Of a DNA stretch of 46,745 bases, positions 18,549 to 34,771 are shown piece by piece. The DNA comes from a bacterium (GTDB taxonomy: Bacteria; Desulfobacterota; Deferrisomatia; Deferrisomatales; Deferrisomataceae). The notes under the pieces were generated by a model. The model was not told where the DNA came from. It searched no databases and was given only the letters and a program-made list of their open reading frames with translations. Position 1 is the first letter of the stretch, and each line of letters begins with the position of its first letter. The stretch lies in contig JALUTY010000041.1 of the NCBI GenBank assembly GCA_027021615.1, forward strand, positions 1-46,745. Direction: 5' to 3'. The translations under genes were made by a program, and so were the position numbers.

Positions 18549-19856
18549 TCAGGCCCCGCCCCCCGGGCTGCGGTACACGTACGCGCAGGGGTCCGTGGGG
18601 TAGAGCTCACGGAAGTTGCGGATCTTCTCGAGGTACGACGACCGGAGGGGCTCATCCTTGGGCACCAAAAGGATCCCGTTCTGGGTGCGCAGGTCCCGAG
18701 ACAGGACCATCCCTTCCCGCAGCTCATCCAGAGGCACTTTGCGCTCGCGGGTGGAGTCGTAAGCGTCCCGGCGCTCCTCGAGCACGTCGAGCAGGGCGTT
18801 GAACACGGCGCCGTCGAAGTGCCGCCCTACCTGCCGATCCATGGCATCCAGCACCAGCCTTTCCTCTGCACCTTTGCGCACCCCTCCGCGGGTCAGGCGG
18901 TCGTAGGCATCGACCACCCGGATCACCCGGGCGGCCACGGGGATCTCGTCGCCCGCCAGGCCGTCCGGAAATCCCGAGCCGTCCACGTTCTCGTGGTGGT
19001 GGCGCACCGCCCGGGCCACCCCCACGAGCCCGTCGATCACCTGGATTTGCCCCTCGCCGATGACCGGATGCTTGCGCACCTCCTCCCGGTCGGTCGAACC
19101 CAGGTGGGCTGGCTCCTTCAAAAGCACCCCGTCGGGCAGACCGATTTTTCCGATGTCGTGGAGCAGGGCGGCCACGATGGCATCCTGCACGGTTTCCTTG
19201 TCCCGCACCCCGAGCCTGGCGCACACCTTGGGCACCAGCCCAGCCACCCGCCGGCAGTGGGCCCCCAGGGTCTGGTTGCGCAGGTCCAGGAGACTCGCGA
19301 ACGCCTTGATGGTGGCGAGGTTCTGTTTGCGCAGGCTCTCGTTGAGCTCCTCCGACATCTTAAGGGCCATCTGGAGCTCGTTGGTGCGCTCACGCACCCG
19401 CCGCTCCAGCGTGGCGTTGAGCTCTCGTAGCTCCTCGTTCTGGTGGCGCACCCGCTCCTGGAGGGCGGCGTGCTCGCGCCTCAGGTCCAGCTCGGCCAGG
19501 GCTTCAGCTACCACGTCCAACAGGGCCTGATCGTCCCAGGGTTTGGGCAGGAACCGGTACACCCGGCCGTCGTTGATCGCCTCCATGGCCGCGGCCACGT
19601 CGGCGTACCCGGTCAGGACGATCCGCACTGCCTCGGGCCGGATCTCCCGGGCCCGGGCCAGAAGCTCGGTGCCGGTCATGCCGGGCATCCGCTGGTCGGA
19701 GAGAATGAGAGACACGGGCCGATCCGCCAGGATCTCGATGGCCTCGCGGCCGCTTCGGGCCGTGAGGACCTCGTGCTCGGTCCGGTGAAACAGCCGGGTG
19801 AGGGCCTTGAGGATGTTCTCCTCGTCGTCCACGAACAACAGGGTGTGCCGGGCCAT
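18549..19856 (-). CDS. HD-GYP response regulator (probable c-di-GMP phosphodiesterase)
   Basis: The 435-residue protein has a receiver domain (residues about 5-120; phospho-acceptor Asp54 in SDQRMPGMTG; KPWDD at about 105), a coiled-coil linker (about 125-180) and an HD-GYP domain. The HD-GYP domain has His233-Asp234 in LLHDIGKIGLPD and HHENVDGSGFPDGL, where GYP is replaced by GFP. HD-GYP proteins hydrolyse cyclic di-GMP, as in RpfG. A C-terminal segment of about 70 residues is extra. It starts 3 bases after the stop of the REC-PAS regulator, so the two are cotranscribed with the upstream kinase. Confidence 0.92.
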   Translation of the reverse strand: MARHTLLFVDDEENILKALTRLFHRTEHEVLTARSGREAIEILADRPVSLILSDQRMPGMTGTELLARAREIRPEAVRIVLTGYADVAAAMEAINDGRVYRFLPKPWDDQALLDVVAEALAELDLRREHAALQERVRHQNEELRELNATLERRVRERTNELQMALKMSEELNESLRKQNLATIKAFASLLDLRNQTLGAHCRRVAGLVPKVCARLGVRDKETVQDAIVAALLHDIGKIGLPDGVLLKEPAHLGSTDREEVRKHPVIGEGQIQVIDGLVGVARAVRHHHENVDGSGFPDGLAGDEIPVAARVIRVVDAYDRLTRGGVRKGAEERLVLDAMDRQVGRHFDGAVFNALLDVLEERRDAYDSTRERKVPLDELREGMVLSRDLRTQNGILLVPKDEPLRSSYLEKIRNFRELYPTDPCAYVYRSPGGGA

Positions 19857-31607: not shown

Positions 31608-31662
31608 AGCCCGCGTTTCGTGATCTCCGTTGCAAGGGGGGTTGGAAAGGACCGTCCACCCC

Positions 31663-32517
31663 GTGCGCAGACTCCTGCTTCTCGTCGCCGCGTTCCTCCT
31701 GCCCGGGGCCGCGGCGTTTTTCGCCTGCACCCGTGCCGACGAGACCCCGGCCGGGCCGGCCGATCTGCCCCCCGAGCCCGAGATCCGGGTCTCGGGCTCG
31801 GAGACGGCGTTCCCGGTTCTGGAACGCCTGATCCAGGTCTACACCGGGGAGAACCCCCGGGCGAGGGTCCGGATCCTGCCGGGCACCAGCACGGCCGGGG
31901 GCGTGGCCGGCGTGCGCTCCGGAGCCCTCGACCTGGGCACCTGCTCGCGGCCGCTGCGGCGGGACGAGACCGCGGGCCTGGCTTACCACCTCCTGGGGTA
32001 CGACCCTATCGCGTTCGCCGTCCACCCCGCGGGTGGGGCCCCCAAGCTCGGCGCCGAAACGGTACGCGAGATCTACGGGGGATCGATCCGCAACTGGGCC
32101 CAGGTGGACGGGGTGGACCACGAGATCCTGCCCCTGGACCGGAGGCCCGACCAAAGCGTCCGTCGAGCCCTCATGGAGGGGTTCTTCGGACCCGGGTTCC
32201 AGATGAGCGAGGCCGCCGTGGTGCTGGACCGGCCGGCCGACATGACCCGGGCCCTGGCCACTACGCCTTACACCATCGGGTATGCCGGCCGGGCCGAGCT
32301 ACGCAGTCTGGGCCTGGAGGTGCGCACGGTCCCCCCTGGGGGCCGATGGCCACGGCCCGACGAGGTCCGATCGGGGACGTTTCGGCTCGTCATTCCCCTG
32401 GGCGTGGTCAGCCGGCCATCACCCCGTCCGGAAGTGGCGCGATTTCTCGCCTTCTTAACGGGCTCCCGGGCCGCGGCGGTGCTCGACGCCCTAGGTGCCG
32501 TTCCGGCCGCCCCCTGA
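31663..32517 (+). CDS. PstS-like periplasmic solute-binding lipoprotein
   Basis: The 284-residue protein has a lipoprotein signal peptide (VRRLLLLVAAFLLPG, then a lipobox at AFFAC). The mature part matches the phosphate-binding-like family: VSGSETAFPVLERLI, LPGTSTAGGVAGVRSGALDLG and IYGGSIRNWAQV. It probably binds a small anion at the inner-membrane face, but the ligand is not predictable. The start is the GTG at 31663; a TTG 11 codons earlier would spoil the signal peptide. No Pst transporter is nearby. Its stop is followed after 1 base by the ATG of the HD-GYP membrane protein, which suggests it is a sensory partner. Confidence 0.85.
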   Translation: MRRLLLLVAAFLLPGAAAFFACTRADETPAGPADLPPEPEIRVSGSETAFPVLERLIQVYTGENPRARVRILPGTSTAGGVAGVRSGALDLGTCSRPLRRDETAGLAYHLLGYDPIAFAVHPAGGAPKLGAETVREIYGGSIRNWAQVDGVDHEILPLDRRPDQSVRRALMEGFFGPGFQMSEAAVVLDRPADMTRALATTPYTIGYAGRAELRSLGLEVRTVPPGGRWPRPDEVRSGTFRLVIPLGVVSRPSPRPEVARFLAFLTGSRAAAVLDALGAVPAAP

Positions 32518-32518
32518 G

Positions 32519-34771
32519 ATGATCCCGACACTGCGTGCCCAGATCCTTGCGGTCCCGCTCCTTCTGACGGCTCTTGCGTTCGCTGTGCTCGGTACGGCCG
32601 CCTACCGCTTCGCCTCCCGGCTCATTCTGGCCGGCGAGGACCGGGCCCTGCAGACCCAGCTGGCCCAGGCCAAGGCGTTCTTCGAAGCCCAGACCCAAGG
32701 GTTGGCGGACCGAGCCCGGGAGCTGTCGGACCGAGTGGACCTGTGGAGCCACGTGGGCCGGGAAGGGATCGATCACTCGGTGGTCCAGGACCTGCTGCCG
32801 TGGAAGGTCCGCTGGGATCTCGACTGGATCGAGCTGGTGGATCCCCAGGGCTGGGAGAGGGCTCGGATGGACGAGGCCGCGACCCCGGTCAGCGGGTTCG
32901 AACCGCCCCCCCGGGCCGAGCCCGAGGTGGAGGCCTTGGCGCGGTTGGGGCTGAGCGGCATCACGTTGGGTTCGGTGCTCCGCACCGGGGGCCGAACCCT
33001 GCTGGTGGGGGTGGCACCGGTACGGCGGCCGTCCGATGCCAGAATCACGGGCGTGCTGTTGGTGGGCCGCGGCGTCGACGGCAAGATGATGAAACGGCTC
33101 GCCCGCCTCTTGGGGACCCGGGTGGCCCTGTTCGGGCCCGGGGGAGAGCCCGTGGCACGCTCCGACCCGCGGTTCGCCCCGGACTGCGCCCGGTGCCACG
33201 GCCGGCCCGAAGCCGTGCGCACCCAAGGGTTCCACTCCACCTTCGTGGCTGTTCCTACCCGGAATCCCCTGCTACCGGGCGACCGGCGCCTCGGGATGGC
33301 CGCCCTCACCCTCGGCGGCGCCCCCTTGGGCATCCTGGTGGCCGAGCACGAACTCGCCCCGGCGTTCACCAGCCTCCGCCGGGCGGTGGCCACCATGGGG
33401 ATGGTGGCCGGTCTCTTTTTCCTGGCCGGTCTCCTGGCCCTGGACCGAGCGGTGAGGTGGATCGTGGGCCCCGTGCGCGCCCTAGCCACGGCCGCCCGGC
33501 GCCGGGCCGTCGGCGACATGACGAGCGAGGTGGCCGTGCAGGGGGCCCGGGAGATCCGCGTGCTGGCCGAGGCGTTCAACGTCATGACCCGCCGGCTGGA
33601 CCAAGCCAACCAGGAGCAGCTCGAGCTGCGGCAGGCCCTGGAGGTCCGGGTGCGGGAGCGGACCCGCGCCCTGGAGGAAGCCGTGGAGCGGCTCATCACG
33701 GTCCGGGAGCTAGGGCGCCACCTTCCCCGGACCGCGGATCCGCTGGGGGTCCTGCGGGCCGCGGTCCGGCTGGCGGCCGAGGCGGTGGGTGCCCAGAGGG
33801 CGTGCGTGCTGGCCCGGTCGGAGACGGATCCGGATCGATGGGGCATGGCGGGCGCGTACGGTCGGATCGAGCCCGCCGGCCGGGACGTCCGATTTTCTTC
33901 GGAGCTCCCCTTGGCCCAGCGGGCCACCCCCAGCGGGGTGGTGCTGGACCCTGGACCCGGCGCCGGGTTGCTCGACCCGGTATCTGGAAGCCGGGTTCGA
34001 ACCTTGGCCGCCGTTCCCATCCCACTACCCGAGCAGGATCGGCCCGAGGCCTTGCTGCTCCTCTACGATCCTGAAGGAAGGTCGGCCTTCGGCCGAAGGG
34101 ACCTGGACGTGCTCCTGCCGTTCGGCCGGGAGGTGGGAGCCGTGTACCAGACAGCCAGACTGCACCTGGCCCAACAGAGGGCAACCCTGGAGATCGTGCA
34201 GTCGCTGGTGAACGCGATCGAGGCTAAGGATCCTTACACCCGGGGTCACTCCCAAAGGGTGACCCGGCTCGCCCTGGCCACGGCCCAGGAGATGGGCCTC
34301 GGGACCCAGGCCACGGAGGTCCTCCGCCAGGCCGCCATGCTCCACGACATCGGCAAGATCGCGGTGCGCCACGAGGTGCTCCACAAGCCCTCGGGCCTCG
34401 ACCCGGATGAGATCGACCTGGTACGTCAGCACCCGCTGACCGGAGCCCGAATCCTGGAGCCGCTGTCGTGGCTCGAGGACGTGGCCCAAGTAGTGCTGCA
34501 GCACCACGAACGGCCCGACGGGAAAGGCTACCCCTTGGGGATCGGGGGAGGGGACCTGCGGGTGGAGAGTCGGATCCTGGCCGTGGCGGACGCCTACGAC
34601 GCGATGACAAGCGACCGCCCCTACCGCCGAGGGCTCGGTCGGGGCGAGGCCCTGGCCGAGCTGTACAAAGGGGCCGGGACCCAGTTCGACCCTGCCGCCG
34701 TGGGGGCCCTAGAGGAGGTCCTTCACGGCGAAGACTTTAAGAACCACCCGGGCCGGGGGGCCACAGCCTGA
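32519..34771 (+). CDS. Membrane HD-GYP protein with CxxCH periplasmic sensor, HAMP and GAF
   Basis: The 750-residue protein has TM1 (about 5-25), a periplasmic sensor (about 30-285) and TM2 (about 290-310). HAMP (about 315-370), coiled coil, GAF (about 405-555) and HD-GYP (about 565-740) follow. Within the sensor, Cys223-Ala-Arg-Cys226-His227 is a c-type haem attachment motif. The HD-GYP core is intact: HDIGKIAVRHEVL and HHERPDGKGYPLG. It should hydrolyse c-di-GMP in response to a redox, gas or ligand signal, perhaps through the adjacent lipoprotein. There is no clear SD, so translation is probably coupled. Its 3' end overlaps the convergent MBL gene by 35 bases. Confidence 0.9.
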   Translation: MIPTLRAQILAVPLLLTALAFAVLGTAAYRFASRLILAGEDRALQTQLAQAKAFFEAQTQGLADRARELSDRVDLWSHVGREGIDHSVVQDLLPWKVRWDLDWIELVDPQGWERARMDEAATPVSGFEPPPRAEPEVEALARLGLSGITLGSVLRTGGRTLLVGVAPVRRPSDARITGVLLVGRGVDGKMMKRLARLLGTRVALFGPGGEPVARSDPRFAPDCARCHGRPEAVRTQGFHSTFVAVPTRNPLLPGDRRLGMAALTLGGAPLGILVAEHELAPAFTSLRRAVATMGMVAGLFFLAGLLALDRAVRWIVGPVRALATAARRRAVGDMTSEVAVQGAREIRVLAEAFNVMTRRLDQANQEQLELRQALEVRVRERTRALEEAVERLITVRELGRHLPRTADPLGVLRAAVRLAAEAVGAQRACVLARSETDPDRWGMAGAYGRIEPAGRDVRFSSELPLAQRATPSGVVLDPGPGAGLLDPVSGSRVRTLAAVPIPLPEQDRPEALLLLYDPEGRSAFGRRDLDVLLPFGREVGAVYQTARLHLAQQRATLEIVQSLVNAIEAKDPYTRGHSQRVTRLALATAQEMGLGTQATEVLRQAAMLHDIGKIAVRHEVLHKPSGLDPDEIDLVRQHPLTGARILEPLSWLEDVAQVVLQHHERPDGKGYPLGIGGGDLRVESRILAVADAYDAMTSDRPYRRGLGRGEALAELYKGAGTQFDPAAVGALEEVLHGEDFKNHPGRGATA

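Follow-up and report, generated by a model that had tools for sequence, protein, structure and literature searches.

Haem attachment through a CxxCH motif is already known from periplasmic Cache-type sensors, a recently described class that is close to the protein analysed here. The sCache_heme family (DUF3365/Tll0287) was defined in a 2026 preprint; it shows strict conservation of CxxCH, and NO-sensor behaviour is described for a member that has a signalling architecture (PMC12889525). For the Geobacter proteins GSU0582 and GSU0935, the redox change is accompanied by a switch of the distal haem ligand, His-water or His-Met (PMC8396549). One CHASE4 domain, which exerts control over a diguanylate cyclase, has also been described as binding haem, in this case of the b type (PMC13277305). 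This study concerns an HD-GYP membrane sensor with a periplasmic CxxCH, encoded in a window of 46,745 nucleotides (the whole stretch of DNA that was analysed), together with its congeneric homologs, its gene neighbour and related sensors in 395 genomes of the phylum.

Topology and fold of the HD-GYP sensor

The gene (32519..34771, + strand; ATG start at 32519, stop at 34771) encodes a protein of 750 aa, organized as TM1, a periplasmic domain of ~250 aa, TM2, HAMP, GAF and HD-GYP. TM1 (32543..32623, +; about aa 9-35) was placed by hydropathy, which locates it near residues 1-32, and by a helix in the structural model; TM2 (33380..33451, +; about aa 288-311) was placed by hydropathy, which locates it near residues 288-312. 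The remaining domains were assigned by Pfam, namely, HAMP (33452..33601, +; aa 312-361; PF00672, E 2.5e-12), GAF (33740..34135, +; aa 408-539; PF01590, E 3.4e-6) and the HD-GYP phosphodiesterase domain (34205..34696, +; aa 563-726; HD_5, 135 bits). These three are necessarily cytoplasmic, which places the sequence from TM1 to TM2 in the periplasm, and that sequence contains the putative haem-attachment motif CARCH (33185..33199, +; residues 223-227, with C223, C226 and H227). C223 and C226 are the sole cysteines N-terminal to HAMP, and C429 is the only other cysteine of the protein. Hydropathy and Pfam domain order thus agree with the earlier note on this DNA, which had placed Cys223-x2-Cys226-His227 between the two TM helices on the periplasmic side.

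The same note had called the HD-GYP active site intact, and indeed the metal ligands and the GYP motif are found: alignment to 5z7c, together with matches to 4mcw (both solved structures), identifies E568, H577, H609/D610, K613, H638, H662/H663, D667, GYP and D691. The closest solved sequence, 5z7c, is a 3'3'-cGAMP-specific enzyme. The protein is predicted to be a one-component membrane sensor with phosphodiesterase activity on a cyclic dinucleotide, possibly c-di-GMP or cGAMP. A second HD-GYP protein within the window is a response regulator with REC and HD_5 domains (18552-19856, -).

The periplasmic domain (32624..33373, +; about aa 36-285) is, according to profile alignment and model superposition, a two-lobed, CHASE4-like Cache domain with the CxxCH in its membrane-proximal lobe. 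Pfam CHASE4 (PF05228) was matched below threshold at aa 100-202 (23.6 bits vs the gathering cut-off of 26.2), for which reason the domain is termed CHASE4-like only. With hhalign, the match to 34 CHASE4 sensors from the phylum reached P=97 (E 3e-11) over aa 97-342; without the TM segments and with the CxxCH masked it was P=95, carried by lobe 1, and lobe 2 alone was unmatched to the CHASE4 alignment. The sensor taken alone gave no convincing sequence match in the PDB. AlphaFold2 modelling with a 38-row CHASE4 alignment gave a pLDDT of 74 (30-58 in the CxxCH loop), and with the three congeners only a pLDDT of 36. The model superposes on LuxQ (Z 15.7, the best fold match) and on the CHASE4 domain of IsmP (8wct; Z 15.2 and rmsd 4.3 over 196 residues, with a poorly modelled lobe 2).

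Three arguments were considered and dropped. One, drawn from a haem pocket in the model, was abandoned because of the low pLDDT of the CxxCH loop. Another, that the CxxCH segment is an insertion, had in its favour ~13 additional residues relative to Pfam-type CHASE4, but binding-protein-linked kinases have a similar loop length. Lastly, an origin from a cytochrome fragment was not upheld: the closest flanking match is a multihaem segment at L034 from the same family (APLCAGCHGRPE), and that locus was retrieved with this very segment, hence the match is no evidence.

Conservation of the CxxCH segment

CARCH is kept in both other congeneric species compared (L017 and L018), of which the sensors are ~91% identical; the within-genus comparison covers three species in all, and a search for congener contigs gave one congener only, its contig being that of G001. 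In this three-species comparison, no other part of the sensor is as well conserved as the CxxCH segment. Over residues 211-264 of the membrane-proximal lobe (33149..33310, +; 54 aa), dN is 0, with 0 non-synonymous differences over ~115 N sites in both comparisons, next to 5 and 12 synonymous differences, respectively. In the flanking parts of the sensor and in TM2/HAMP, dN is ~0.06, at which rate ~7 non-synonymous changes would be expected in residues 211-264 (our own arithmetic), in a stretch that was picked post hoc and in two comparisons that share ancestry and of which one has a low dS there. H239, M260 and H277 are conserved in the congener alignment and are candidate distal haem ligands.

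Conservation in close homologs, to which the earlier note had tied its reading, was therefore found within the genus, whereas outside the genus none of 60 sensors of the CHASE4 family from the phylum contained CxxCH. Likewise, no carrier was found outside the genus in the 395 phylum genomes, within the sensitivity of single-protein searches. Weak matches to a lobe-2 query outside the genus proved to be cytochromes, ORFs in the wrong frame, or CHASE4-like lobes that lack CxxCH. In the sequences compared, the motif in this sensor appears to be confined to one genus.

The adjacent binding protein and competing readings

Directly upstream lies a gene for a PstS-like periplasmic solute-binding protein (31630..32517, +; PBP_like_2, 295 aa; Pfam PF12849, E 4.6e-20), whose stop codon ends 1 nt before the HD-GYP ATG, an arrangement common to the three species. 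Homologues of this protein are encoded directly upstream of membrane sensors at four other loci, i.e., the paralogous C67 in this genome, G003 C99, G005 C142 and G239 C24. The partner is a two-lobed histidine kinase at C67, G003 C99 and G005 C142 and a CHASE4/PAS kinase at G239 C24, and none of the partner sensors at the four loci contains CxxCH. The binding-protein-linked kinases and the HD-GYP sensor have the same lobe-2 start, GxxVALxGxxG...S, with a modest profile match (P about 66-80). Binding-protein genes of the C67 type have an extra phosphonate-binding domain. More widely in the phylum, PstS-like binding proteins, some of them phosphonate-domain fusions, recur upstream of two-lobed sensors (31630-32517 (+), G000:C67:13612-14352, L192, L194, L195, L196 and L197). 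Such pairs may represent a little-described family of binding-protein-coupled sensors. By analogy with known pairs, the PstS-like protein most likely docks on the sensor domain and provides a second, solute input.

Because PstS-like homologues stand beside CxxCH-free two-lobed sensors both here and in sister lineages, the motif seems to have been added later, at the level of the genus; the simplest history would be that the pair of binding protein and sensor is older and that CxxCH was added within the genus. The same observation means that solute input needs no haem, and together with the 1-nt spacing kept in three species it speaks for the best-surviving alternative, namely, that haem is attached yet is structural or a side acquisition, the true signal being a solute that the PstS-like protein senses, in the manner of LuxPQ or AioX/AioS. 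However, strongest conservation within the sensor falls on the CxxCH segment, which is beyond the needs of a passive graft, and this alternative is considered unlikely.

The capacity of the host to attach haem bears on the next alternative. At the DNA level, the codon pattern for CxxCH is matched 667 times in the genome vs 130 times for a reversed control, and the genome encodes haem-attachment proteins of the CcsB, CcmF and CcmC types. Given these genes and the abundance of CxxCH, a periplasmic CxxCH in this cell, including that of the HD-GYP sensor, would very plausibly receive haem. Separately, dense runs of CxxCH codons at G000:C2:44566-46224 (-; 24 listed matches) and G000:C18:37292-38347 (+; at least 16 listed matches) indicate large multihaem cytochromes, which are to be expected in a metal-reducing bacterium; the host, rich in haem-c motifs, is probably a metal reducer.

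Periplasmic CxxC pairs can form disulfides. The pair might thus serve, without haem, as a periplasmic thiol/disulfide switch or as a metal (zinc) site, an option to which the poorly modelled local fold leaves room; conservation of the exact CxxCH, including the His, in a host well equipped with haem-c motifs and attachment genes argues against it and makes it somewhat less probable still than a solute-only signal. That the motif is a roleless product of chance in an ordinary CHASE4-like HD-GYP sensor, as its presence in one genus only and the many opportunities for CxxCH among the proteins of a genome could suggest, is highly improbable, as ~8e-4 CxxCH are expected per 250 aa (local Cys 1.17%, His 2.23%), and the motif is kept in three species amid 54 unchanged residues.

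The reading preferred over these alternatives is one in which a single periplasmic, covalently bound haem c, responsive to redox state or NO, modulates HD-GYP activity, with the binding protein as a second input; we infer haem attachment, ligands, signal, docking and substrate, and regard the whole as moderately probable. What speaks against it is that the 60 CHASE4 relatives from outside the genus lack the motif, that pLDDT is low in the CxxCH loop, and that the comparison within the genus covers only three species. In this mechanism, the cytochrome c maturation machinery would attach one haem c to C223 and C226 in the membrane-proximal lobe, with H227 as the proximal ligand. Reduction, or binding of an NO-type ligand, would change the haem ligation, possibly with H239, M260, H277 or water being exchanged at the distal position. 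This change would shift the last strand and the helix that leads into TM2, and subsequently HAMP and GAF, and the shift of TM2/HAMP would alter cyclic-dinucleotide hydrolysis by the cytoplasmic HD-GYP domain. The PstS-like protein would dock on the sensor domain in LuxPQ or AioX/AioS fashion to convey the presence of a solute. Compared with the earlier note, which had proposed a covalent periplasmic haem that senses redox state or gas and controls c-di-GMP hydrolysis, the motif, topology, intact HD-GYP domain and close-homolog conservation are retained; the syntenic PstS-like partner and the sCache_heme precedent had been missed.

Comparison with sCache_heme and other sensors

Like sCache_heme proteins (PF11845; GSU0582, GSU0935, Tll0287), the HD-GYP sensor has CxxCH in a periplasmic Cache-type sensor that is fused to a signalling output. 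However, sCache_heme is a single Cache domain, whereas the sensor described here is two-lobed. In sCache_heme, the CxxCH element is inserted between strands 3 and 4 of the Cache module; the sensor model puts it after strand 2 and ahead of the later strands of lobe 2, a low-confidence placement with a pLDDT of 30-58. The PF11845 profile had no match to the sensor up to E 1, although it does match L087 and L202. An hhalign comparison with 24 sCache_heme members gave P=79-93, which fell below 20 when residues 221-229 were masked; the similarity thus stems from the motif alone, and membership of sCache_heme was rejected. None of GSU0582, GSU0935 and Tll0287 was among the fold-search matches listed, an absence that carries no weight.

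The sCache_heme family occurs in 206 of the 395 phylum genomes, including that of the host at C17:122902. This host member (L087; G000:C17:122902-123384, -) belongs to a 376-aa ORF with the C-terminal cysteine pairs CSVCKK...CPQC and no usual signalling output. At L202:1387-2880 (+), a genuine sCache_heme (PF11845)/HAMP/HD-GYP (HD_5) protein is encoded, with a second HD-GYP gene just upstream. With L202 as a precedent, the predicted combination of covalent haem and HD-GYP is not unique to the present sensor.

If haem is attached, covalent haem would have been gained more than once by Cache-type sensors. Tentatively, and with somewhat less confidence than the mechanism itself, the locus can be read as showing that Cache-type sensors recruited a haem-c attachment motif a second time, independently: a CHASE4-like two-lobed domain ancestrally paired with a PstS-like protein would have gained CxxCH in its membrane-proximal lobe within one genus, giving rise to a dual-input switch (solute and redox/NO) on HD-GYP. 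The haem-motif sensor and its haem-free relative, which have like binding-protein partners in one genus, would then form a natural before/after pair for testing how a solute sensor comes to respond to gas or redox state as well. Attached haem would further provide, in a bacterium rich in haem c, a direct link from periplasmic redox state to the turnover of cyclic dinucleotides; in Geobacter, this turnover reportedly affects extracellular electron transfer (PMC12285248, PMC6456294).

Other described systems resemble the locus in part. The CHASE4 c-di-GMP sensors of P. aeruginosa (IsmP PA2072; PA14_53310) have the two-lobed CHASE4 fold in common with it and control c-di-GMP enzymes (PMC10904736, PMC13277305), but their ligands are iron, copper or non-covalent b-type haem, their outputs are GGDEF/EAL, and attachment via CxxCH is not reported for them. 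In LuxP/LuxQ and AioX/AioS, a binding protein is likewise encoded with a two-component-type membrane sensor (PMC5908839); those sensors have kinase outputs and no haem motif, whereas the pairing proposed here is drawn from gene order alone. The globin-coupled HD-GYP protein of Vibrio fluvialis also places a haem-based sensor over an HD-GYP phosphodiesterase, the sensor being a globin domain there and a periplasmic, CxxCH-bearing Cache domain here (PMC10882959). Relative to all of these, what appears to be new is the different sensor scaffold, the gain of the motif, observed in this genus only, and the probable partnership with a binding protein.
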